Assembly: GCF_002102355.1 (NCBI RefSeq)
Contig: NZ_LQPT01000028.1
Coordinates: 124,001-188,000, forward strand
Reading direction: 5' to 3'
DNA: 64,000 nt
Source: Mycobacterium sherrisii
GTDB lineage: Bacteria > Actinomycetota > Actinomycetes > Mycobacteriales > Mycobacteriaceae
Position numbers and translations under genes: made by a program. Shown piece after piece: positions 6,998 to 48,437 of this stretch. The notes beneath the pieces are model-generated. The model was not told the DNA's origin. It made no database searches and saw nothing but the letters and a program-made list of their open reading frames with translations. Positions within the stretch are counted from its first letter, which is position 1. Each line of letters opens with the position of its first letter.

Positions 6998-8422
6998 TCA
7001 GGCCGGTCCGAGGCCGGTGACGGGGGAGGTCAGCGCCATTGTCACAACGCCGTCCGGCCAGCGCAACCTCACCCCCGGGGTCGCGGTCACTGAACCACAC
7101 TCCGCGCTGACGACGCCGTCGGGCAACTCGAGAACCGGGCCCCCGCCACCCGCGGTAAGCATGGCGAATCCCGGGAAGCACGTGAGCCATTCGCCCATGC
7201 TGGTGCCGGCGGGGCGCGCTACCGCAGCGATGTCGAGTTCGGCGCCGGATCGACTGGCTTCGGCCATCATTCCCAGCGTGCCGACAACGCCGGCCATGCT
7301 GACATCCTTGGCCGCGCGGGGACGCATCGAGGCGACCGCGCGGGTCATCGCGACGAGCTCGCCGCTGCTGCGGTTGCTCGTCGAATCCCATTGTCTTCCT
7401 GTATATCCTGGCCGCCACTGACCGGCGGTGTCGACCGTCAACCGAATCCGGTCCCCGGACGTCGCGCCACCGGCGGGAATGGGAGTCGCGGCCCGCCCCA
7501 GCGCGGTCACCGCCAGAGCCGGCGGAACGCCCAGTTGGGTGTGCCCGCCCAGCACCGGCACCTGCCACGCCGCCGACGCGGCGGACAACCCGGCGATCAC
7601 TCGGTCGAGCAGCCGTGCGGTCGGCGCCCCGACGGCGTCCAGGAGACCGATTGGCGTGGCGCCCATCGCGGTAAGGTCGTTGACGTTGACCAGAACCGAA
7701 CACCACCCCGCCCATTCCGGGTCACGTTCGACCATCGCGGGAATGATGGCGTCACACGCGGCGATCAGATCGCTGCCAGGAATCGGCGTTCCGTCATCAC
7801 CCACGAAGCCTGCCGGCCCCAGCGCCCCGGGCACCGGCCGCAGCGGCTCGAGCGCGGGGCCGAGGAATGACTTGGTGGCCGTTACGATGCGCTGAAATGG
7901 GTTCAACGGCCAGCGAATCCACGCATGAGGTCGCGACGCGACGGTGCACTCACCCAGCATTTGCCAGCCCAGCTTGGTGAACAGGGGCATGTAGCGTTGC
8001 TGCACGGTGGCCTCGAATCGCAGCACGCCGGCCGATTCAACGTAGGCGCATGCGGCGCGAATGAGCGCGGAGCCCAGGCCCACGATCCGGACGGCCGGAT
8101 CCGTCGCCAGTCTCGAGCCGGTCCACCAGCCGAGGTCCACCGCCGTAGCCGGGGCCAGCCGTACTCCGCCGAGGATCTGACCATCGGGCGTCCTCGCCAC
8201 CAGCACGACGGCCCGTGGATCGTCGTCGACCTCATCGCGATCTGTTCCCGCGAAAAGACCCTGATCGCCGACGAATGCATCGTGGCGTATCCGCCGGTAG
8301 GCCTCGAGTTCGCGCCCGGACTCCGCGGGGTGGATCAGAAACGGCGCGGGCGCCGCCGGAGCGCCGGTCAGGATCGACGAATCCACCGACGCGGCTTCGG
8401 TGTTGGTGCTGAAGAAAATCAT
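6998..8422 (-). CDS. nitE/nitF: Fused GNAT acetyltransferase and AIR-synthase-like protein of Nit1C (MSMEG_0567 type)
   Basis: A 474-residue two-domain protein. Residues 1 to about 165 are a GNAT N-acyltransferase (beta strands around AVVLVARTPDGQILGGVRL and the acetyl-CoA loop VGLGSALIRAACAY). Residues about 190-474 resemble PurM/AIR synthase, with VNVNDLTAMGATPIGLLDA and VLGGHTQLG, the ATP-binding elements of that fold. In proteobacterial Nit1C clusters these are two genes, NitE and NitF. The reaction is unknown; a PurM-like domain suggests ATP-dependent activation of an amide or formyl group. The start at 8422 overlaps the nitD stop (ATGA). Downstream genes follow within 10 bases, so it is within the operon. 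Confidence 0.85.
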   Translation of the reverse strand: MIFFSTNTEAASVDSSILTGAPAAPAPFLIHPAESGRELEAYRRIRHDAFVGDQGLFAGTDRDEVDDDPRAVVLVARTPDGQILGGVRLAPATAVDLGWWTGSRLATDPAVRIVGLGSALIRAACAYVESAGVLRFEATVQQRYMPLFTKLGWQMLGECTVASRPHAWIRWPLNPFQRIVTATKSFLGPALEPLRPVPGALGPAGFVGDDGTPIPGSDLIAACDAIIPAMVERDPEWAGWCSVLVNVNDLTAMGATPIGLLDAVGAPTARLLDRVIAGLSAASAAWQVPVLGGHTQLGVPPALAVTALGRAATPIPAGGATSGDRIRLTVDTAGQWRPGYTGRQWDSTSNRSSGELVAMTRAVASMRPRAAKDVSMAGVVGTLGMMAEASRSGAELDIAAVARPAGTSMGEWLTCFPGFAMLTAGGGGPVLELPDGVVSAECGSVTATPGVRLRWPDGVVTMALTSPVTGLGPA

Positions 8423-36821: not shown

Positions 36822-37036
36822 GAAATCCATGCTGGGCCCTGCGCCTTTGCGGATCCTGGGAGCGAAGCAGTGCGAGAGCCAAGAATTGGTTGAAAGTTTG
36901 CTGAGTGTAACGATTCAGTCACGCGCACAACGGAATACGGATACCGAGTCGTGACGCTATCACGTCCCTGGGCTGGTTCGGTGCTGGTTCGGGGACACGC
37001 GTCGTGCTGCGACGCGTTAACGTACGAGGGGTGAGT

Positions 37037-37435
37037 ATGGGATTCACCGTGCAACGGTTCGACCATATCGTGATCAACTGCAACGACGTCGAAGCTACCG
37101 CCGCGTGGTACGAGCGGGTGCTGGGCATGAGACGAGAGACGTTCGGGCCGTCGAACCGGACCGCCTTGGCCTTCGGGAACCAGAAGATCAACCTTCGGCC
37201 GCTGGGCGCGCTGGCCGACGACCCCGACTGGGTCACCGGCGCTGTGGAAGCCTCAGGCTCCGAAGACCTCTGCTTCATCACCGACGCCACCCCGGACGAC
37301 GTGCGCGCACATCTCATCGAGTGTGGGGTCGAGATCACCGCGGGCCCGGTGACCAAGACCGGCGCGTTGGGGCCGATGACCTCTCACTACTGCCGAGACG
37401 TCGACGGCAATCTGGTCGAAATCGCCGTCTACTGA
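37037..37435 (+). CDS. VOC-family protein (glyoxalase/dioxygenase fold)
   Basis: A 132-residue vicinal-oxygen-chelate protein. It opens FTVQRFDHIVINCNDVEATA, where the His is the first metal ligand, and ends with CRDVDGNLVEIAVY, where the Glu is the last ligand. A further ligand could be the Glu in GSEDLCFIT. The fold supports glyoxalase, extradiol dioxygenase or antibiotic-binding roles; the exact one cannot be read. The ATG at 37037 follows GAGGGG. It converges with the cupin gene with a 7-base overlap. Confidence 0.85.
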   Translation: MGFTVQRFDHIVINCNDVEATAAWYERVLGMRRETFGPSNRTALAFGNQKINLRPLGALADDPDWVTGAVEASGSEDLCFITDATPDDVRAHLIECGVEITAGPVTKTGALGPMTSHYCRDVDGNLVEIAVY

Positions 37436-37896
37436 CCGCTTTCCAGCGGATACAGAGCGGGCAGGTTGATAACGATGGCCTCCTGCGTGCTACGGGCGAT
37501 CACGACCTCGGCTTGCTCGTCGGGGTGGGGGTTTTCTTCCCGGTGCGGCAGATAGGGCGGGATGAACACGTAGTCACCGGGAGCGACAGCAATGCGCACC
37601 TCTTCGACTCCGTCGTGAAACACGAACTCCGGGTGCCCGCTTCGCACGTAGATCGCCGTCTCGGAGTCGCCGTGATGGTGGTTGGCGGAGACGGTCTGCG
37701 GCAGCGCATGAGTCTCACCCATCCACAGCTTCTCGGCGCCTACCAACTTGCCGTTGAGGGCCACGAACCGCCGCAGGCCTTCCGACTGCGCGGTGTTGGC
37801 ACTGATGTCGGACGCCTTGATGTGGTGCACCCGGCTGCGCAGGGAACTCTGTTCGGTGACGTCGAAGTCTGGGTGAAAACCGTCGGCGGTTGCCAT
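37429..37896 (-). CDS. Cupin-domain protein
   Basis: A 155-residue single-domain cupin. Motif 1 is seen as SANHHHGDSETAIYVRSGHP, with two or three metal-binding His and a Glu, and motif 2 as VFIPPYLPHREENP with the last His. It should bind one divalent metal and act as a small dioxygenase, isomerase or ligand sensor. It is the last of six closely spaced minus-strand genes starting at 42690, 14 bases downstream of the LpdB-like gene, so it probably belongs to that operon. Confidence 0.84.
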   Translation of the reverse strand: MATADGFHPDFDVTEQSSLRSRVHHIKASDISANTAQSEGLRRFVALNGKLVGAEKLWMGETHALPQTVSANHHHGDSETAIYVRSGHPEFVFHDGVEEVRIAVAPGDYVFIPPYLPHREENPHPDEQAEVVIARSTQEAIVINLPALYPLESGQ

Positions 37897-37910: not shown

Positions 37911-39350
37911 CTAATCTGAATTCCGGTAGGCTTCAAGCAGTTTCAGCCACAGCTCACTGATCGTCGGGAAGCACGGCACCGCATGCCACAGTCGGGCAAT
38001 AGGGACCTGACCGGCGACGGCGATGGTGGCCGAGTGCAACATTTCGGTGGCACCCGGACCGACCATTGTTACCCCAAGTAGATAGCGCTGATCCTCGTCG
38101 ACCACCATACGCGCCCTGCCACTATAGCCGTCGGCATAAAGCTTGGCGCCCATCACAACGTCACCGATTTCGACGTCGACGGTGCGCACCCGGTGCCCGG
38201 CCCGCAAGGCCTGCTCGACGGTCAGTCCGACGGCGGCTGCCTCCGGGTCGGTGAAGAATGCCTGGGGTACCGCATGGTGGTCTGCCGTTGTGGCATGCGC
38301 GCCCCACGCCGCCGTGTCCAACGGTTCCCCGGCAGCACGCGCGGCGATCGCTGCACCGGCGATACGGCCCTGGTACTTGCCCTGATGAGTCAACAACGCT
38401 CGGTGATTGACATCGCCCGCCGCGTAGAGCCAGCCCTCTTTTACGGCTTGGACTCGGCAGGTGTCGTCGATATCAAGCCAGCTGCCTGGGGACAGCCCAA
38501 TCGTTTCCAGGCCAATGTCGTCGGTGAGGGGCGTCCGGCCCGTAGCGAAGAGCACCTCGTCGACCGTTACGGCGGTGCCGTCGTCCAGTTCGATGGTGAC
38601 CGGCCCCGCCGGGTCGGTCCGTCGCAGCCCGCGTGGGGTGACTTCGACCCGCACATCCACACCCGCGTCGGTGAGGCCGCGCCGAATACGTTCGCCGACA
38701 AACGGTTCCATCCTCGGCAACAAAGCTGACCCGCGAACCAGCAGAGTCACCGAGGAGCCCAGTCCCTGCCAGGCGGTTGCCATTTCGACGCCGACACCGC
38801 CGGCGCCAACTATCGCCAGGCGCCTCGGTACCGTGCTGCTATCGGTTGCCTGACGGTTGGTCCACGGTCGGGCCTCGGCAATGCCCGGCAGGTCCGGAAG
38901 CGCGGCCCGGCTGCCGGTGCAGACGACCACGGCATGCTTGGCATCGAGGGAGACCTCTTTGCTGGAGGATGACACGGTGACCCGGCGGGTCCCATTCAGC
39001 CGGCCGTGCCCACGCACCAGTGTCGCGCCGATGCCGCTGACCCAGTCGGCCTGCCCGGTGTCGTCCCAATCGGTCACATAGCGATTGCGGCGGCCGAATA
39101 CCCCGGCCGGGTCGATCGGCCCGGTGACCGCCTCGCGTGCGCCGTCGACCCGCTCGACGTCGGCCAGGGCAAGGACGGGTCGCAGCAGCGCCTTGCTCGG
39201 CACGCACGCCCAGTACGAGCATTCACCGCCGACAAGTTCGCGCTCGACGACCGCGACCCGCAGGCCGCCGGAGCGGGCACGTTCGGCGGCGTTCTGGCCC
39301 ACCGGTCCGGCGCCGAGCACCACCACGTCGAATTCGTTGCTGGGTGTCAT
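37911..39350 (-). CDS. Pyridine nucleotide-disulfide oxidoreductase, LpdB-like (Rv0794c type)
   Basis: A 479-residue class I flavoprotein disulfide reductase. It has an FAD motif [16 protein letters not shown], the redox pair C44-C49 in [18 protein letters not shown], an NAD(P) motif [20 protein letters not shown], and the C-terminal dimer region. Where lipoamide dehydrogenases have HAHPTLSE, this protein reads [10 protein letters not shown], so the catalytic base His is replaced by Phe. It is therefore not a standard lipoamide dehydrogenase; a quinone, mercury or low-molecular-weight substrate is possible. It corresponds in position to Rv0794c (lpdB). Confidence 0.82.
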
Positions 39351-39395: not shown

Positions 39396-40085
39396 TCAGC
39401 GGGTCCCGGCGGCGAGCTGCTCGGCTAGCTGTCGCAGGTCGCTTGCGACCAGGGTCGGTTGGGGCAGGCCGTCGACCGGCAGCGGAGGGTTGCCCGGTCG
39501 CGTGATCAGGGCGGTGTCAAAGCCGACGTTCTGCGCGCCGAGCAGATCCCACACATGGGCGGCCACCATCATGCAATCGGCGGGATCCACGCCGAGGGAC
39601 TGGCTCGCGTAGCGGTAGACCGCGGGAGACGGCTTGAACGCCCGGCAGGCGTCCACGCTGAGCTGTCGCTCGAAAAAGCCGGCGAGTCCCGCGTGCTCAA
39701 GCGGTGTCGTCGCACCGGGGCGGTGTGGTGAATTCGTCAGCGTAACGAGCCGAAAACCGTGGTCGCGCAACGCAACAAGTCCTGCTTCGACGTCCGGGTG
39801 GGCGGGCATCGTCTGCATGTGTGAGTGCAGCCGGTCGACCTGAGCGTCGGTGATGTCGACCCCGTGGGCCTCGGCCAACATGCGCAGGACGCCTTGCCCG
39901 AGCGTGAAGAAGTCGACGTAGCGTTCGGCCAGCGTGATGGTCATCGAGTACATCACGAGTTGGCCAAACCATTCGCGCAGCACCTTCTGGTCGCCGAACA
40001 GTTCGCCGAAAAGCGGCGCTATGGAGTCGATGTCGATGAGCGTCTCGTTGACGTCGAAGACAAGTACCGACGGTGTCGTCCGCAT
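39396..40085 (-). CDS. HAD-superfamily type II haloacid dehalogenase
   Basis: A 229-residue L-2-haloacid dehalogenase-type protein. The nucleophile Asp is in VLVFDVNETLIDI (residue 10), motif II is VTLTNSPHRP, the Lys is in AFKPSPAVYRY, and motif IV is VAAHVWDLLGAQN; the fold and order fit the (S)-2-haloacid dehalogenase branch. These enzymes replace halogen by hydroxyl at the alpha carbon. It starts two bases after the TMEM175-like stop, so it is in the same operon. Actual dehalogenation is a prediction. Confidence 0.85.
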   Translation of the reverse strand: MRTTPSVLVFDVNETLIDIDSIAPLFGELFGDQKVLREWFGQLVMYSMTITLAERYVDFFTLGQGVLRMLAEAHGVDITDAQVDRLHSHMQTMPAHPDVEAGLVALRDHGFRLVTLTNSPHRPGATTPLEHAGLAGFFERQLSVDACRAFKPSPAVYRYASQSLGVDPADCMMVAAHVWDLLGAQNVGFDTALITRPGNPPLPVDGLPQPTLVASDLRQLAEQLAAGTR

Positions 40086-40087
40086 GG

Positions 40088-40681
40088 CTACTGCTGCGCC
40101 TCCTGATTATCCGGAATGTCCGGCCGTATGTATCCGATCAGACACAGACATATCAACGCCATCGCGACGGCTGGCCAGCGGAGTGCGACAACCGCGGCTG
40201 TCGAGAAGACGAAGATCGTGAGGAATGATCTCATCCGCAGCAGCCTGCGCATCCGGTGCGAAACATCCTCGTGGGCGGGACGGTCGATGACCTCGGTGCA
40301 CAGCGCAATGTAGGTGATGTTGACCAGGACGAACACCGAGGCATACAACACGACTGGTGCGTCGGCCAACCGGCTGTCGGCGATCCATTCGGTGGTGAAC
40401 GGGATCAGTGACACCGAGAAGAGGTGCGCGAAATTGGACCACACCAGCCGCGGAGTTGCGGTCTGGGCGTAGCCGAACAGGTGGTGATGGTTGACCCAGA
40501 CGATCGCAATGAACACGTAGCTGACTACGTAGCTCAGCCCCGTCGGCCACAGCGGCAATAACGCGCTGATGCTGGGCGCACCGGGCGGCTTGAGTTCGAG
40601 CACCAGAATGGTGATGAGCACCGCGAAGACGCCGTCGGAGAATGCCTGCACTCGTTCCGCGCTGACTTTGTGTGCAGCCAC
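40088..40681 (-). CDS. TMEM175-like (DUF1211) membrane channel protein
   Basis: A 197-residue membrane protein with about six hydrophobic segments. The helix-1 motif RVQAFSDGVFAVLITILVLE is the FSDGVxA signature of the TMEM175/DUF1211 family, some of which form potassium-selective channels. A second recognisable block is IVWVNHHHLF. The GTG at 40681 is used because GGGAGG lies five bases before it; upstream codons are not homologous. It sits between the DUF427 gene (23 bases away) and the HAD gene (two bases away). Confidence 0.83.
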   Translation of the reverse strand: MAAHKVSAERVQAFSDGVFAVLITILVLELKPPGAPSISALLPLWPTGLSYVVSYVFIAIVWVNHHHLFGYAQTATPRLVWSNFAHLFSVSLIPFTTEWIADSRLADAPVVLYASVFVLVNITYIALCTEVIDRPAHEDVSHRMRRLLRMRSFLTIFVFSTAAVVALRWPAVAMALICLCLIGYIRPDIPDNQEAQQ

Positions 40682-40704
40682 GGTGACCTCCCGTCGCGTC
40701 CGGT

Positions 40705-41592
40705 TCAGTCTGCCCGACGGTCTGCCGTCGGCGGCTCGCCGAGTATCTCGTCGATGTCGAGTCCCCGGTCGACGCCGTGCGGGACGACGGTTTGGCCCGG
40801 TTCGAGGTGCAGCCGTTTGTCGTCGAGGCGCACCTCGATCTTGTCGGGTTCGAAGGACACCAGGTTGCGCACCCGAGAAACCTCGGCCCAGGCATTGACA
40901 TAGGACCAGGCGGCGCGCTTGTGGGCCCCGATATCGTAGTAAGAGGCGATTCCCTTGTAAGGACAGAATGTTTGCCCGCCAACGGGTTCGAGGGCCAAGT
41001 CGTCGATGTCGTCGCGCGGCACGTACCAACGCGGCGCAAAGCCGGACTCGTACAGAGCCAGCGGGCGGTGCGAGTCGGCGACCACCCGATCGGCGTCTCG
41101 AACCACCAGATGCCGTGAGGTGGAGCGAATGTCGATGCGATGATACGAGTCGGCCGCATGCCCAACGATGCGCTCGTCCTCCTCGTAGAAGGCGTCCGCG
41201 GCACGCCACGCGAAGGCCAGACGTCCGCCGAGAACGGCGGCATGGTGGGGCAGGCCGACGTGGTGCCACGCCGCGTGCGTGGCCTCCCGCCCGGGAGCCC
41301 GCATGGTGAACCACTGAGTGTCGCCGAGGTCTTGGTGCTGGGTCACGCGACCCTCGGAGAGCAGGACGCTTCCTGCCACGTCTTCCACCGGGAAATACGC
41401 GACGGGATAGCGTCCGGGCTCGTGCAGCAGGACCACGTCCTGGCTGTCGGCGATCCATCGGTCCGCAAAGCGGACGCGCATGCGGCGACGTAACGGCTCC
41501 GCGTAGAGCAACCGGGGCGGCAGCGGCTGCGGAGTCAGGAAGTGGCCGACCGACCCGGTGGCCAGCGGGCCTTGCTGCCATGCCAACCCCAT
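40705..41592 (-). CDS. DUF427 double-domain protein
   Basis: A 295-residue soluble protein with two DUF427 domains. The second contains the family hallmark QTFCPYKGIASYYDI, and an earlier parallel block is RVRFADRWIADSQDVVLLHE; RHLVVRDADRVVADSHRPLA repeats that pattern in the second unit. DUF427 proteins are small beta-barrels of unknown function, common in actinobacteria. The ATG at 41592 is preferred to a GTG four codons earlier because GAAAGG lies a suitable distance upstream of the ATG only. It follows the MDR gene by 54 bases. Confidence 0.8.
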   Translation of the reverse strand: MGLAWQQGPLATGSVGHFLTPQPLPPRLLYAEPLRRRMRVRFADRWIADSQDVVLLHEPGRYPVAYFPVEDVAGSVLLSEGRVTQHQDLGDTQWFTMRAPGREATHAAWHHVGLPHHAAVLGGRLAFAWRAADAFYEEDERIVGHAADSYHRIDIRSTSRHLVVRDADRVVADSHRPLALYESGFAPRWYVPRDDIDDLALEPVGGQTFCPYKGIASYYDIGAHKRAAWSYVNAWAEVSRVRNLVSFEPDKIEVRLDDKRLHLEPGQTVVPHGVDRGLDIDEILGEPPTADRRAD

Positions 41593-41646
41593 CTTCGCCG
41601 CCACCTTTCGCCGAATACTTTGTCAGAGTCGATATCTCGTGAACCT

Positions 41647-42690
41647 TTAGTCCATGACGACGACCATTTTCCCGCCGGCTTCGCCGGCCTCCATGATGCG
41701 GTGTGCCTCGTGAATCTGGTCGAAAGAAAAGACGTGTGACGGGGTTGCATCGAGCTTGCCTTCGGCCACCTGCCGCGCGATGTCCTGCAGCGGCACATCG
41801 GATAGGGGGAAGCCGGGTGTCCCAAACACGAAGCTGCCGAAGAAGTTCAGGTTCACCCCGCTGGCCATGCGCAGCAGCGGGTTGAAGTCACCGATCGGGT
41901 CGAGCCCGCCCAGCCATCCGGCGAGGCAGGCCGTGCCACCGCGGCGCAGCATGTCCAGAGAGTCGAGAATCGTGCTGTTGCCCACCAGATCCAACACGGC
42001 GTCGATCTGTTTGGATTCGGTGATGTGGGCAGCAAGGTCGCGTCTTTCCTGCACGACACCCGAGGCGCCCAAATCCTCGAGCATCGGAAATCGCTTCGGA
42101 TTGCGCGCCGTGGCAATCACCTTCGCGCCGGCGGCCACTGCCATCTTCAGCGCCGCTTGGCCGAAGGATGAGGTGGCGCCGCGTAGCACCAGCGTCTGTC
42201 CGGCCTTCAAGTCGAGGTTGCGGAACAGGCACGTCCACGCTACGGCGTAGGTTTCGGGCAACGCCGCCAGTTGCGGCCACGGCAGCTCGGATTCGATGAG
42301 CGCAACGTTGGCTGCCCGCACCCGGGTGTATTGCGCGTAACTGCCGTTGATTGTTCGTCCCAGACCGCCCATCAGCGCCGCGACCTTGGCGCCGACCGGA
42401 AATTCCCCGCCGGGGCAGGAATCGACGATCCCGACGCATTCAATGCCACTGACCTCGGCGGCCTCGGCCCACTCGCCACGGCGCATGTGTAACTCGGCAT
42501 GGTTGATCCCGAATCCCTTCACCTCGATCACCACCTCGCCGTCTCTGGGACGCGGCTTGGGGATTTCGGTGTAGACCAGACTGTCGAGCCCGCCGAACCC
42601 GTTCAAGATGATCGCCCGCATGCTGTCCCCACCGGGTTGCTCTCGCACCACAGCTGGGGCGGTGGGCAATGCGCTGCTGGTGCTGGTCAT
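41647..42690 (-). CDS. Zinc-type medium-chain dehydrogenase/quinone reductase family protein
   Basis: A 347-residue MDR-family NAD(P)H-dependent oxidoreductase. It has the opening MRAIILNGFGGLDSLVYTEI after a 24-residue leader, the GroES-like fold, and the Rossmann stretch LVLRGATSSFGQAALKMAVA. The catalytic zinc cysteines of alcohol dehydrogenases are not evident, so it is closer to quinone oxidoreductase/enoyl reductase. The ATG at 42690 is preceded by AAAGAGG; an internal ATG at 42618 would remove the leader. Two TGGG-N8-CCCA palindromes lie 59-96 bases upstream, implicating the double-TetR regulator. It heads a six-gene strand run. Confidence 0.85.
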   Translation of the reverse strand: MTSTSSALPTAPAVVREQPGGDSMRAIILNGFGGLDSLVYTEIPKPRPRDGEVVIEVKGFGINHAELHMRRGEWAEAAEVSGIECVGIVDSCPGGEFPVGAKVAALMGGLGRTINGSYAQYTRVRAANVALIESELPWPQLAALPETYAVAWTCLFRNLDLKAGQTLVLRGATSSFGQAALKMAVAAGAKVIATARNPKRFPMLEDLGASGVVQERRDLAAHITESKQIDAVLDLVGNSTILDSLDMLRRGGTACLAGWLGGLDPIGDFNPLLRMASGVNLNFFGSFVFGTPGFPLSDVPLQDIARQVAEGKLDATPSHVFSFDQIHEAHRIMEAGEAGGKMVVVMD

Positions 42691-42748: not shown

Positions 42749-42764
42749 TGGGCCATATGACCCA
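42749..42764. promoter_or_regulatory. TGGG-N8-CCCA palindrome, site A
   Basis: TGGGCCATATGACCCA is a near-perfect 16-bp inverted repeat upstream of the MDR gene. Site B starts 22 bp (two helical turns) further on. It is probably an operator for the double-TetR protein encoded next door. Confidence 0.6.
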
Positions 42765-42770
42765 ATATTA

Positions 42771-42786
42771 TGGGCTGTAAAACCCA
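42771..42786. promoter_or_regulatory. TGGG-N8-CCCA palindrome, site B
   Basis: TGGGCTGTAAAACCCA has perfect outer arms with a divergent centre. It stands in phase with site A on the same face of the helix, between the end of the double-TetR gene and the MDR start. Confidence 0.55.
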
Positions 42787-42813
42787 AAAATGCCCAGGGG
42801 TGGCGCTGGAGAC

Positions 42814-44172
42814 TCAGGGTTTGCGGCGTCGCCGAGATGGCCGCCGTTCGCCCGTGCCGGCGATGAAGGAACGCACGTAGTCGACGGCCGCGGTGACCGC
42901 CACCCGCAGCGGTTCGGCATCGCCGGTGGCATGGGTGATCATGGCCCCGCCCTGGTGCGCGATGACCAGCGACGCGGCCAGATGCCGCGGATCGGCCTCG
43001 GGTCGGAGTTCCCCTCGCTGACGCATGGTTGTCAGGCCGGTCCGGAACAGCTCGAGCCACCGGTCATAACCGTACGCCAGGTCGTCGCGCACCTCGTGGT
43101 CGGCTTCGATCAATTCACCCGCCAGCGACCCGTACACGCAGCCACCCAACCGGTACACGGTGTCGATGTCGTCGATGCAGGCCTCGGCCCATGTCTGCAG
43201 CGTTTCAATGCTGTCGAGCGTGGCGAGCCGAGGTTGGGTGTGAAACTCGATGACGTCGTCGCGGCGCGCCGCGATGACCTCGCGGGTCAACTCGCGCTTG
43301 TCGCGAAAGTAGTGCGAGATCTGTGACCCACCTACCCCCGCGGCGCGGCGCACCTCTTCGATGCTGGTGTTTGCTACCCCGCGCTCGAACATCAACTCGG
43401 CCGCGGCGGTGATGATGCGGTTCCGCGTCGCCTGTCCCTTGGGGGTGAACCGGGACTTGGAGTCGCCGGCCATGTTGCGGCCGTTGCCCTTACGTGCCGG
43501 GTGCCGAGGACGACGGACGGGGCGTGGCGTGCGCTCGTCGGGGTCGGTGGCGAACATGCGCAAGTAGTTGACCGCGAAGCGGGTCGCATCGGCGTGCGGC
43601 CACTCCGCTCGATAGGTGAAGGCCATGGTGCCGCCCCCCTGGTGTGCGGCGATGATCACGAGGGCCAACCGGCGCGCATCGGCGCCGGCCATCAGCGCAC
43701 CGTTGCCCTTCATCCGCAGAATCGCGGACTCCAGCAACTTCGCCCAGTCCCAATAGCCGGCCGCCAAGGTGGCGCGCATCGTGTCGTCCGATTTGGCCAG
43801 CTGTGCGGCAAGCGCGTGATAAGTGGGCGTGCCGCCCGAGGTTCCGATGCGTCGCAGGTAGCGCATGTTGAGATCGAGCCATCGCTCGAAATCGTCGAAC
43901 GAGTCCAAGTCGCCAAGGCTGGGCTGGCGGTGGAAGTCGAGCACCACGGCGATCTGGCGTTTGATCACCTCGCGGATCAAGGCGCCCTTGTCGGCGAAGT
44001 AGTGGGCGAGCTGTGACCCGCTGACCGACGCAGCCTTGCGGACTTTGTCCATGTTCGCCGCAGACAGGCCCTCGGTGACGATCAGCTGGGCGGCGGTCTG
44101 CACAATCCGGTCGCGGGTGGCGCGGCCCTTGGCGGTCAACCGTCGTTCATCCTGAGCGTCGGGATGGACCAT
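42814..44172 (-). CDS. Double-TetR transcriptional regulator (two TetR units in one chain)
   Basis: A 452-residue protein that is twice the normal TetR length and contains two homologous halves offset by exactly 230 residues. Unit 1 has the HTH MDKVRKAASVSGSQLAHYFA (residues 41-60) and unit 2 IEEVRRAAGVGGSQISHYFR (271-290). Both recognition helices share GSQ(L/I)xHYF. Each unit also has its own ligand domain ending AAHQGGGTMAF or AHQGGAMITHA. A basic Pro/Arg linker joins them near residues 215-235. The frame is open throughout; an internal ATG at 43473 could in theory start unit 2 alone. Mce3R is a known two-unit TetR with a different sequence. Confidence 0.88.
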   Translation of the reverse strand: MVHPDAQDERRLTAKGRATRDRIVQTAAQLIVTEGLSAANMDKVRKAASVSGSQLAHYFADKGALIREVIKRQIAVVLDFHRQPSLGDLDSFDDFERWLDLNMRYLRRIGTSGGTPTYHALAAQLAKSDDTMRATLAAGYWDWAKLLESAILRMKGNGALMAGADARRLALVIIAAHQGGGTMAFTYRAEWPHADATRFAVNYLRMFATDPDERTPRPVRRPRHPARKGNGRNMAGDSKSRFTPKGQATRNRIITAAAELMFERGVANTSIEEVRRAAGVGGSQISHYFRDKRELTREVIAARRDDVIEFHTQPRLATLDSIETLQTWAEACIDDIDTVYRLGGCVYGSLAGELIEADHEVRDDLAYGYDRWLELFRTGLTTMRQRGELRPEADPRHLAASLVIAHQGGAMITHATGDAEPLRVAVTAAVDYVRSFIAGTGERRPSRRRRKP

Positions 44173-44205
44173 CGCGTCAGGCTAACCCGTCAGCGGCGCC
44201 GCTTA

Positions 44206-44221
44206 TGGGATCTGTAGCCCA
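44206..44221. promoter_or_regulatory. TGGG-N8-CCCA palindrome, site C
   Basis: TGGGATCTGTAGCCCA, flanked by A and T so that the arms extend to ATGGG/CCCAT. It lies 34 bases upstream of the double-TetR start, at the end of the hydrolase gene, which fits autoregulation. Confidence 0.6.
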
Positions 44222-44243
44222 TTGCGTGCGCAGCGTGGCGGGT

Positions 44244-45113
44244 TCAGCCGGGCAGGCGTTGTTCGAGGAAAGCGCGGATGAGGGCGGTGGCCTCATCCAG
44301 TGCGGACTCCAGCAGGAAGTGTCCGCCGTCCAGCAGGTGGATCTGCGCGTCGGGGAGGTCGTCGGCGAATGCTTCGGCTCCGGCCGGCCCGAAGATCTTG
44401 TCGCCGCGACCCCACACCGCCAGCAGCGGAACGCCGCTGTCGCGGAAGTACTCGTGCACCCGCGGGTACATCCGCGGGTTGGTCGCGTAATCCCGAAACA
44501 GCTTCAACTGCACCAAATCATTGCCGGGCCGCGACAAGAGCGCGTAGTCGTGATGCCAGCACTCGGGATCGACCACCGTGTCATCGTCCACTCCGGTGAC
44601 GTACTGCCATCGGGTTGCGTCCAGCGTCAGGAACTCCCGCAGCGGAGCCTCCGTCTCGGCGGTCTGTTCCTCCTGGTAGGCCGTTACGGCTTTCCAGAAG
44701 TCCGGCACGAAACCGGCATCGTAAGCATTGCCGTTCTGGGTGATGATGGCCGTGATTGTGGAGGGATCACGCAGTGCCAGCCGCCAACCGATCGGGGCCC
44801 CGTAATCCTGGACGTAGATCGCGTACCGAGCGACGCCAAGGCTGCTTAACAGCCCTGCGGTCAGTTCCGCCAGCGCATCGAACGTGTAGTCGAACTCGGT
44901 CACGGGCGGGGCGTCAGAGAATCCGAAGCCAAGATGATCCGGCGCGATCACGTGGTAGCGGTCAGCGAGAGCGGGAATCAGGTTCCGAAACATGTAGGAG
45001 CTGGTTGGGAATCCATGCAGCAGGACCAGCGCGGGTGCCGCCTTGTCGCCACCTTCCCGGAAGAACAATCGATGGCCGTCGACGGTGCTGTAGCGATGGT
45101 GAACAACCGGCAT
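44244..45113 (-). CDS. Alpha/beta hydrolase with Asp nucleophile (haloalkane dehalogenase/epoxide hydrolase-like)
   Basis: A 289-residue alpha/beta hydrolase. The oxyanion loop is LLHGFPTSSYMFRNLIP, the nucleophile elbow is IYVQDYGAPIGWRLAL with Asp rather than Ser, the acid candidate lies in WGRGDKIFGP, and the catalytic His in DGGHFLLES. An Asp nucleophile is typical of haloalkane dehalogenases and epoxide hydrolases. The ATG at 45113 follows a strong GGAGGA. A TGGG-N8-CCCA site lies 25 bases upstream, linking it to the double-TetR gene downstream of it on the same strand. Confidence 0.87.
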   Translation of the reverse strand: MPVVHHRYSTVDGHRLFFREGGDKAAPALVLLHGFPTSSYMFRNLIPALADRYHVIAPDHLGFGFSDAPPVTEFDYTFDALAELTAGLLSSLGVARYAIYVQDYGAPIGWRLALRDPSTITAIITQNGNAYDAGFVPDFWKAVTAYQEEQTAETEAPLREFLTLDATRWQYVTGVDDDTVVDPECWHHDYALLSRPGNDLVQLKLFRDYATNPRMYPRVHEYFRDSGVPLLAVWGRGDKIFGPAGAEAFADDLPDAQIHLLDGGHFLLESALDEATALIRAFLEQRLPG

Positions 45114-45137
45114 CAGATTCCTCCTGGCGACATATTC

Positions 45138-45153
45138 TGGGATACATATCCCA
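45138..45153. promoter_or_regulatory. TGGG-N8-CCCA palindrome, site D
   Basis: TGGGATACATATCCCA is symmetric except at its centre. It lies 25-40 bases upstream of the alpha/beta hydrolase start, over the likely core promoter, so binding there should repress that gene. Confidence 0.65.
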
Positions 45154-46443: not shown

Positions 46444-47250
46444 TTATTCCGGGGCGGCCAGCGGGACCGACGCCTCGGCGGTGTAGCACAAGAAGGTCAT
46501 GGTCTCCTGCAGATACAGCTGCACGGAGTCCGCGTCGTGGGCGGTGTAGCCGATCGAGACGTCGGTGCCCAGTTGCAGATCGAAGTCGCCGCCGCGGGTG
46601 GTCAACACAAAGGCGCCGTCGATGGCCGGCGCCCAGATGATGTCGCCGGGGACCAGCCGGTCGATGTGTTCGAGGATCGGATAGCCGTGTTCGGTGGTCT
46701 CGCTGACCTTCGTGTACACGTCCGCGGACAGCAACACCGAGTAGGGGCCATCGACGCCGGCCAGCCGCAGCTCCGAGATCGCCTGGGTGATGACGTCCGG
46801 TATCTCCCGCGGATCCGCCGGCAACGTCAGCGGCTTGTTGGAACTGGCGGAGCGGATGCCCTCGATCTGCGCGGCCGGGTACCCCTCGAAGATCGCGCGG
46901 TCCTCGACGAACGCCAGTTTCTTGGCGGCCGCCTTGACGGGATCCCAGTCCGAATCCTGTGCCCCGCGCTCCACGTTGTCGATCTCCGTGCGGGACAACG
47001 TGAATGGAACACGCAGCCGGACAAGAGGATTGGCGGCACGTAGGTGGGCGACCACGCCGTTGGTCGGCGCCTCGACATCGACCAGCCGGCCGGTGCTGAT
47101 TGCCGCGGTCGTGGGGCCGCCGGGCTCGCTGACGTCGACCACGCGGCGCCCGGCGATGTGGCGTTTGAACGTGCGCGCGGCCTCCAATTCGATTTCGCCC
47201 CAGGCCGCGTCGGTGATCGGCGCCAGTTCGCGGTACAGATTGTTCTTCAT
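46444..47250 (-). CDS. cfp29: Encapsulin shell protein (Cfp29)
   Basis: A 268-residue HK97-fold shell protein, matching the 29-kDa antigen Cfp29 of M. tuberculosis in length and in the opening NNLYRELAPITDAAWGEIEL. Other family blocks are RRVVDVSEPGGP, DWDPVKAAAKKLAFVEDRAI and VDGPYSVLLSADVYTKVSET. Sixty such subunits form a T=1 nanocompartment of about 24 nm that encloses cargo enzymes. The ATG overlaps the DyP-peroxidase stop (TGATG), so shell and cargo are translated together, cargo first. Confidence 0.95.
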   Translation of the reverse strand: MKNNLYRELAPITDAAWGEIELEAARTFKRHIAGRRVVDVSEPGGPTTAAISTGRLVDVEAPTNGVVAHLRAANPLVRLRVPFTLSRTEIDNVERGAQDSDWDPVKAAAKKLAFVEDRAIFEGYPAAQIEGIRSASSNKPLTLPADPREIPDVITQAISELRLAGVDGPYSVLLSADVYTKVSETTEHGYPILEHIDRLVPGDIIWAPAIDGAFVLTTRGGDFDLQLGTDVSIGYTAHDADSVQLYLQETMTFLCYTAEASVPLAAPE

Positions 47251-48272
47251 CAGTTGGGTCCTTTCAGACTGCCGATCGCAAGTGAGCCGTCGGTGGAAGC
47301 GAGGTCAGCGGGCGGTGTAGCCGGGGTTTCGAGCGAGGTGGGAAGGGGTGGCGGATCGTTGAGGAAATCGACGGTGGGGGAGAAGAACAAACCGCCGGTG
47401 ACGGCGGTGGAGAAATCTAGGATGCGGTCGGTGTTGCCGGGTGGGTCACCGAGAAACATGTTGCGCAGCATCTGTTCGGTCACTTCGGGTGTGCGTGAGT
47501 ATCCGATGAAGTAGGTACCGTACTCGCCCTTGCCGACCTCGCCGAACGGCATGTTGTGCCGAATGATCTTCAGCTCGGTGCCGTCGTCGTCCTCGATGAC
47601 GTTCAGCGCTATGTGTGAGTTCGCCGGTTTGACGTCATCGTCGAGCTCGATGTCTTCCAGCTTGGTCCGGCCGATCACCATTTCCTGCTCGTCGACCGAC
47701 AGCGACTCCCACGCTTCCATGTCGTGCACGTACTTCTGGATATGCACATAACACGACCCGGCGAAGTCGGGATCCTCGTCACCGACCGCACTCGCGCTGA
47801 TAGCGATTGCGCCGTCCGGGTTTTCGGTGCCATCGACGAAACCCAAGAGGTCGCGGTTGTCGAAGAACCGGAACCCGTGTACCTCGTCGACCACCGTGAC
47901 GGCCCCGGCCATCGACTTGACGATGCGGCCGGCAAGTTCGAAGCACACGTCCATCGTCCCGGCGCGAATGTGGAACAGCAGGTCGCCGGGGGTCGCCGGC
48001 GCGTAGTGCCGCGGTCCGTTCAGTTCGGGGAACCGATGAAGCTCGGCGGGGCGCGGCCCGGTGAAGAGCCGATCCCAGGCATCCGAACCGATCGAGGCGA
48101 TCACCGACAGCCGCTTGGACGGGTCGCGAAAGCCGATGGCGCGCACCAACCCAGACAGGTCCGGCAGGGCGTCGTGGACCGTCGCCTCGCCGCCGTCGTC
48201 GATGGTGACTACCAAAAAGATCGCGGCGGGCGTCAACGGCGCGAGGATGGGCTGCGGCTGAATCGACGGCAC
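47250..48272 (-). CDS. Encapsulated DyP-type peroxidase
   Basis: A 340-residue dye-decolourising haem peroxidase. The catalytic Asp lies in DLLGFVDGTENPDG, the GxxDG motif of the family, and the proximal haem His is in the later region TKLEDIELDDDVKPANSHIA. The C-terminus ends DGSLAIGSLKGPN, a typical encapsulin loading peptide that docks inside the shell. The start is a GTG at 48272, where homology begins (PSIQPQPILAPL). It corresponds to Rv0799c. The gene is followed at once by its shell gene, and two copies of a 49-bp repeat lie upstream. Confidence 0.94.
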   Translation of the reverse strand: MPSIQPQPILAPLTPAAIFLVVTIDDGGEATVHDALPDLSGLVRAIGFRDPSKRLSVIASIGSDAWDRLFTGPRPAELHRFPELNGPRHYAPATPGDLLFHIRAGTMDVCFELAGRIVKSMAGAVTVVDEVHGFRFFDNRDLLGFVDGTENPDGAIAISASAVGDEDPDFAGSCYVHIQKYVHDMEAWESLSVDEQEMVIGRTKLEDIELDDDVKPANSHIALNVIEDDDGTELKIIRHNMPFGEVGKGEYGTYFIGYSRTPEVTEQMLRNMFLGDPPGNTDRILDFSTAVTGGLFFSPTVDFLNDPPPLPTSLETPATPPADLASTDGSLAIGSLKGPN

Positions 48273-48285
48273 TCTGGTGACCTTA

Positions 48286-48334
48286 GCGTGGCGACGGTGA
48301 GCGCAGGTAGTGCGCGAATGAGGAGCCGCGCGGT
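48286..48334. repeat. 49-bp direct repeat, copy 1
   Basis: This copy is identical over 49 bases to 48343-48391, giving a period of 57 bp. It lies between the DyP peroxidase start (48272) and the divergent aminopeptidase start (48438), so it is in a shared promoter region. Confidence 0.85.
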
Positions 48335-48342
48335 GGGGTGGG

Positions 48343-48391
48343 GCGTGGCGACGGTGAGCGCAGGTAGTGCGCGAATGAGGAGCCGCGCGGT
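48343..48391. repeat. 49-bp direct repeat, copy 2
   Basis: The second identical copy, separated from the first by eight bases of G/T-rich sequence (48335-48342). It ends 47 bases before the aminopeptidase ATG. No dyad symmetry is obvious inside it. Confidence 0.85.
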
Positions 48392-48437
48392 CGGGCCGAC
48401 GTGACGGGCCTCGCTGCAAACCGCGATGATGTTCACC

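Follow-up and report, generated by a model that had tools for sequence, protein, structure and literature searches.

Conserved palindromes around a double TetR gene of Mycobacterium sherrisii, very probably the operators of a local regulon

A 64,000-nucleotide stretch of the Mycobacterium sherrisii genome (positions 124001-188000 of contig C28, in a 5.56-Mb genome of 128 contigs; hereafter the window) encodes a double TetR regulator and, around its gene, carries four exact copies of the palindrome TGGG-N8-CCCA. We propose that these palindromes are the operators of the double TetR encoded between them, which would be an autoregulated repressor placing one chain on a single palindrome and two chains on the pair that precedes an operon led by an MDR dehydrogenase gene; we give this reading a probability of about 0.85. 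A preliminary description of this DNA had listed the four sites with identical arms and spacing, and its coordinates were exact (Table 1). All four sites lie within 722 bp of intergenic DNA, in which 0.013 sites would be expected at the genome-wide rate (P ~1e-9), and the two before the MDR gene begin 22 bp apart, the two 16-bp palindromes together spanning 38 bp. The window as a whole contains five exact copies, compared with a mean of 1.17 in 100 shuffled versions, one of which reached five; the fifth copy, at 7536-7551, is the sole one beyond the four sites.

The sites are very probably real, since dozens of related species keep them with the same spacing and at the same promoters. A first regulator search of 41 genomes returned 30 loci, eight of which (the window and seven relatives) hold the regulator, each with four or five exact sites; 20 of the remaining 22 had no sites, and two single-TetR loci (L009 and L011; labels in G, C and L are our handles for genomes, contigs and loci) had two each. 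Across 248 genomes of the genus, a 38-base pattern describing the pair at 22-bp spacing was found in 51, twice in five of them, and its reversed control in none. The regulator was detected (E<=1e-55) in 86 of these genomes, among them all 51 that bear the pair, while none of the 162 regulator-less genomes had it (Fisher P 4.5e-30, in a test that ignores shared ancestry). A fairer test uses loci picked by the protein alone, which gave 86 loci, 85 of which were used and one of which had no C-half. Allowing up to two mismatches, we found a pair in the 260 bp after the regulator with 22-bp spacing in 56 of the 85 and with 23-bp spacing in 11 (67 together), and the pair was exact in 59; two more loci had a pair at 28 bp that we judged spurious-looking. 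An exact site lies within 150 bp upstream of the regulator start in 64 of the 85 loci, mostly at the same place, beginning 47-49 bp before the start codon. Upstream of the hydrolase gene, the nearest 220 bp contain one or more exact sites in all 52 loci that include that DNA (one site in 12, the window among them, two in 37 and three in 3). No exact site was found inside the regulator genes of the 85 loci, the L120 pair beginning 19 bp before the gene end and the L052 C-half being incompletely covered. A set of 26 loci from named genomes, which partly repeats genomes counted under another name, included 20 from Mycobacterium or Mycolicibacterium, all with at least one site and 16 with the pair at 22 or 23 bp; in the other six, which were weak proteobacterial matches, a single site occurred in one and the pair in none.

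The flanks of the pair were compared in 29 pairs turned to the operon direction, with ranges given where two runs oriented loci differently. TGGAC(A/T) stands directly before site 1 in 21-22 of the 29, and the AT-rich spacer between the sites has an invariant AAT (29/29), extended to CATAAT in 22-23; both features lie outside the search pattern. These flanks look like a promoter with a TGGACA -35 element, a 17-18 bp spacer containing site 1, a CATAAT -10 element between the sites, and site 2 over the start. Several of the sites upstream of the hydrolase are preceded by GTGCATA, which may likewise be -10-like. Conserved palindromes at predicted promoters are what would be looked for in the operators of a TetR-family protein. 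The local regulon under the double TetR that the preliminary description put forward is strongly supported by the conservation of the sites, their occurrence together with the regulator and their overlap with predicted promoters, and the sites are very probably docking sites of the neighboring repressor.

The two halves of the regulator are 37-38% identical to each other, and their recognition helices, VSGSQLAHYF and VGGSQISHYF, are near-identical. An AlphaFold model of the single chain (pLDDT 89.8, pTM 0.89) matches Mce3R over both halves, and the predicted fold is that of a single-chain pseudo-dimer. Mce3R (Rv1963c) is a double TetR repressor of Mycobacterium tuberculosis which, according to its paper (PMC11667970), has halves homologous to distinct TetR subgroups, binds two 25-bp asymmetric sites 53 bp apart, and provided what is called the first structure of a double TetR. 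Our regulator resembles it in joining two TetR units in one chain, although these are split in 55 of the 85 loci, and in its predicted fold. It differs in the likeness of its halves, in its palindromic sites and in the 22-bp start-to-start spacing of its pair; moreover, the sequence match is weak and confined to one helix-turn-helix (HTH; E 3e-4, or 6.6e-7 with a profile), and identity in the structural alignment is 12%. The present regulator represents another lineage of double TetR, with an Mce3R-like predicted fold but palindromic sites. Two other family assignments were tried and rejected, namely the autoregulator-binding ScbR family (98.4 bits; NCBIfam cut-off 150) and the acrylate regulator AcuR (71.1 bits; cut-off 247).

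The regulator is encoded in one frame in 30 of the 85 loci and by two adjacent genes in 55. ATGA or GTGA closes the first gene in 24 of these 55, giving the 4-nt overlap seen in coupled genes, and the rest have other small overlaps or gaps; read-through of a stop codon between the halves need not be invoked, because the in-frame junctions inspected have a start codon after the stop. On a tree of the 85 sequences made by a quick method, the fused or split state changed six times, at least four of them on well-supported branches, compared with 24.8 changes for shuffled labels, and the fused form of the window falls in a supported set of 13 together with 12 split relatives. The tree being unrooted, fusion and fission are generally indistinguishable. 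The sites are present in fused and split loci alike, an indication that the two gene products act as a single complex. SAV576 and SAV577 of Streptomyces avermitilis (PMC4051647) are likewise neighboring TetR genes that resemble each other and whose products share their sites, but they are reported there as competing, with no heterodimer, whereas here the two units form one gene in 30 loci.

We infer binding, repression rather than activation, and the signal as follows. The fused chain would fold like a TetR dimer and set its two recognition helices on a single palindrome, one at each TGGG half-site. On the pair, two chains would bind, one between -35 and -10 and one over the transcription start, and RNA polymerase would be shut out; the single sites would likewise repress the regulator's own promoter, as negative feedback, and that of the hydrolase. 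Repression would be relieved by an inducer that binds or reacts within the C-half, and the reductases, the potassium channel, the haloacid dehalogenase (HAD) enzyme, the cupin and the hydrolase would be turned on at once. QacR (PMC4482099) offers a parallel in that two TetR dimers' worth of subunits occupy one long operator, but that operator is a single 28-bp palindrome bound by a tetramer, and here there are two separate palindromes. The preliminary description had assigned the paired sites to a four-headed regulator, and the proposed mechanism refines this: a fused chain, being two-headed, should fit a single palindrome, and the pair would then hold two chains, as the model and the Mce3R paper lead us to infer. 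A true four-headed dimer, in which the N-halves of two chains pair, the C-halves do likewise and both palindromes are bridged, would suit the placing of the pairs on the same helix face, 22-23 bp apart in 67 of the 85 loci, and the two or three sites at 40 of 52 hydrolase promoters. We nevertheless think such an arrangement unlikely, in view of the high-confidence match of the predicted single chain to Mce3R over both halves (with one chain modeled), the single palindrome kept at the regulator promoter and at 12 of 52 hydrolase promoters including that of the window, and the existence of the halves as separate proteins in split genomes.

Some TetR-family proteins activate transcription, and the position of site 1 beside the -35 element could suit a double TetR that is an activator or acts in both ways. 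The lie of site 2 over the predicted start, with the -10 element between the sites, is the usual placement for a repressor, and the site at the regulator's own gene suits negative feedback; we therefore consider activation improbable, and a little more so than the four-headed dimer.

It is also conceivable that a different regulator, such as a single TetR sharing the recognition helix, acts at the sites and that the double TetR is merely their neighbor. TetRs of the same clade do have the same kind of upstream site: in a survey of 80 more TetR loci, the 260 bp upstream contained an exact site in 12 of 17 with a GSQ helix and in none of 63 with other helices (L193 and L224 of the 63 repeat L010 and L014, L173 of the 17 is a paralogue from the M. 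sherrisii genome, and one further locus had no HTH match). Similar sites also accompany a split paralogous TetR pair of the same genome, so cross-talk is possible. This pair has seven intergenic sites (L032:7770-10416, on G000:C19, and L031:3298-3523), three of which lie 29 kb away, between a gene for a NAD(P)-binding protein and an acetyltransferase/MFS transporter. However, in all seven at least one arm carries a fifth G or C, and in three both arms do; the double TetR is present in every one of the 51 pair-bearing genomes, and 64 of the 85 loci have an exact site at its own promoter. Use of the sites by another protein is thus very unlikely. A paralogous TetR pair in G206 has three sites with six-base arms, TGGGTC-N4-GACCCA (L138:4181, 4888 and 4953). 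Single TetRs of the clade (L009, L011, L165-L170), mostly from other families of the order, have two upstream sites each, 33-43 bp apart in seven of the eight and 158 bp apart in L169. Strong as it is as a raw count, the association between GSQ helix and TGGG site is not claimed here as a recognition code, as the tree offers only one or two independent contrasts; since helix type changed twice only, the association is a property of the clade and not a proven code.

The sites, their conservation, their co-occurrence with the regulator, their overlap with predicted promoters and the predicted fold were all computed, and several results weigh against the operator assignment. The genome-wide motif scan suggested in the preliminary description showed no enrichment of the bare 16-mer, with 103 copies compared with 123 of a reversed control, and the count was dropped as proof of a regulon. 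The same description had held that copies in coding DNA at chance frequency would speak against the regulon, and this is what is seen for the bare 16-mer but not for the 22-bp pair. With at most two mismatches the pair occurs at two places in this genome compared with one for the control, and it is exact only at the MDR operon. The exact 22-bp pair is absent from 35 of the 86 regulator-bearing genomes; 16 of the 85 protein-selected loci have no recognizable pair within 260 bp of the regulator, although in three of these (G250, G132 and G242) an exact pair is present at another point of the locus, and 20 of the 85 have no site, even with one mismatch, before the regulator gene. The loci share ancestry, so the counts and P values are not independent events, and ancestry explains the link between GSQ helix and site as well. 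Invariance of the arms in the 29-pair set is a selection effect, because those loci were chosen by those arms, and the promoter elements are read from sequence. Lastly, the rmsd of the Mce3R fold match is large (6.8), and the model covers one chain.

A refined pattern, WTGGGNYN4RNCCCAW, has eight matches in the genome compared with four for its control; three of the eight are at the regulon and one is beside the paralogous TetR. We inspected 21 (19 + 2) of the 103 exact 16-mer copies in the genome, finding 14 (12 + 2) inside open reading frames (ORFs) and seven between genes. All seven intergenic copies are around or near the paralogous TetR pair on contig C19 (four in L032 and three in L031, 29 kb off). 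Four of the 14 ORF-internal copies are within ~110 bp of the listed ORF start (L034, L035:4381, L040 and L234), where the true genes might begin after the site and the site might be upstream. That the palindromes arose by chance or as a by-product of GC-rich composition would accord with the genome-wide counts and with the stray window copy at 7536, but position, spacing, conservation and promoter overlap, together with a pair control of 0 in 248 genomes, make this extremely unlikely.

Table 1. Proposed operators, predicted promoter elements, regulator and neighboring genes of the window
Feature	Positions	Strand	Remarks
Proposed operator 2 of MDR-operon pair	42749..42764	no strand	exact TGGG-N8-CCCA match; over predicted transcription start
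Proposed operator 1 of MDR-operon pair	42771..42786	no strand	exact match; in predicted -35/-10 spacer
Proposed operator at regulator's own promoter	44206..44221	no strand	exact match; 33 bp before regulator start codon
Proposed operator before alpha/beta hydrolase	45138..45153	no strand	exact match; 24 bp before hydrolase start codon
Predicted -35	42791..42796	-	TGGGCA in window; TGGAC(A/T) in relatives
Predicted -10, CATAAT	42767..42772	-	spans site 1 edge and 6-bp spacer; 18 bp from -35
Double TetR regulator, 452 aa	42814..44172	-	N-half ~1-225, C-half ~226-452; TetR_N (PF00440) twice, TetR_C_13 twice
Cys345 codon, C-half	43138..43140	-	aligned with E. coli NemR Cys106
MDR, zinc-binding-dehydrogenase family	41647..42690	-	first gene of operon; best NCBIfam score PIG3-type quinone oxidoreductases, below cut-off
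DUF427 protein, two stretches	40705..41604	-	domain search
TMEM175-like potassium-channel protein	40088..40738	-	PF06736, E 4.5e-27; start codon approximate
Haloacid dehalogenase type II (HAD)	39396..40085	-	TIGR01428, 190.9 bits, cut-off 125.4
Flavin/NAD(P) disulphide reductase, Lpd/MerA-like	37911..39350	-	below NCBIfam cut-offs
Cupin	37429..37896	-	last gene of operon; domain search
Alpha/beta hydrolase, haloalkane-dehalogenase-like	44244..45113	-	below NCBIfam cut-offs; Asp nucleophile V-Q-D-Y-G read from sequence

Searches with Pfam and NCBIfam bore out the gene identities given in the preliminary description, the families found being double TetR, zinc-binding dehydrogenase, DUF427, TMEM175, HAD type II, pyridine-nucleotide disulphide reductase, cupin and alpha/beta hydrolase. 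In the window the genes of the six-gene run described there all point the same way and are separated by short gaps, but the composition of the run differs between species. In 29 of 30 pair loci examined, the pair separates the regulator from an operon led by the MDR gene (19), DUF427 (8) or the disulphide reductase (2), so it stays when the first gene changes; the thirtieth (L067), a second pair in G009, has TMEM175 on one side and the hydrolase on the other, and in that genome the TMEM175 gene is on the hydrolase side and shares the hydrolase sites. The disulphide reductase was considered as RclA and rejected, being 24% identical to E. coli RclA. A second 22-bp pair in G082 (L233:4878-4915) precedes an AAA/LuxR-type regulator gene, beside a disulphide reductase gene (70% identical) and a DUF417 gene whose product is 34% identical to E. 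coli RclC; in the 10 kb of L233 no TetR half was found, and the disulphide reductase was the only one of the reference genes present. The motif also occurs inside the disulphide reductase gene of four relatives (L045:11929, L046:6430, L047:4859 and L048:14130), where codons for W-A-C-V-P spell it, and these matches were taken not as operators but as probable coding coincidence. Convergent with the operon end is a glyoxalase/VOC-like ORF (37004-37435, read from its translation). At 46444-48419 a Family 1 encapsulin shell gene (NCBIfam equivalog) adjoins a gene that we take to encode a DyP-type peroxidase, whose C-terminus looks like a cargo tag; encapsulin and peroxidase genes are also near the regulon in five of seven relatives (L042, L045-L048). 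No exact operator directly precedes the encapsulin or peroxidase genes in the window.

A halogen-compound pathway, as the preliminary description had suggested, was not shown, and defense against oxidants or electrophiles suits the gene content at least as well. The two halves were compared in alignment A2, of 30 fused sequences, another (A1) having been dropped because split C-halves had aligned onto the N-half. A GGCVYGSL motif in the C-half places Cys345 at Cys106 of E. coli NemR (BLASTP E 1e-6, ~20% identity). The cysteine motif is found in 84 of 85 orthologs, the exception being L052, whose C-half was wrongly extracted; the N-half has T-Y/F-H at the same region in all 85, and 64 of the 85 N-halves have no cysteine at all. 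The paralogous pair of the same genome has the same asymmetry, and three aligned single TetRs of the clade have the cysteine. NemR is a TetR repressor answering thiol-reactive signals, in which Cys106 serves to detect reactive chlorine and electrophiles are handled by other cysteines (PMC7464077, PMC3739934), and E. coli also meets methylglyoxal with K+ efflux (PMC3739934). It differs from our regulator in having one TetR unit with the recognition helix VPKGSFYHYF. In the C-half of the window's regulator, the position of the Lys175 partner of Cys106 in NemR is occupied by His, and GC occurs at the same place in other TetRs (3qbm, 3dpj and 2hyj), so the cysteine may be structural. An operon of MDR reductase, flavin disulphide reductase, HAD enzyme, cupin and K+ channel would suit defense against thiol-reactive chemicals. 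We advance tentatively, at somewhat below even chances, the possibility of an obligate TetR heterodimer whose genes have been repeatedly fused and split while the operators stayed constant, with both halves reading the same half-site and a NemR-like sensing cysteine in the C-half only, which would make it a one-sensor repressor of an oxidant/electrophile defense operon that includes a potassium channel.

Literature searches with spellings of the motif matched solely a Xanthomonas Fur paper. When we looked for TetRs that are fused, paired or heterodimeric, and for DUF427 together with TetR in mycobacteria, no report of this system was among the matches listed (in a library with few subscription journals), the nearest of them being Mce3R and SAV576/SAV577. 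In one lineage the system offers well-defined palindromic operators, a promoter whose layout can be read, and regulators that occur naturally both split and fused, and these natural variants make the sharing of DNA binding and sensing by two TetR units directly testable. It would also provide a defined regulon for genes of unknown role, such as those for DUF427 and bacterial TMEM175.

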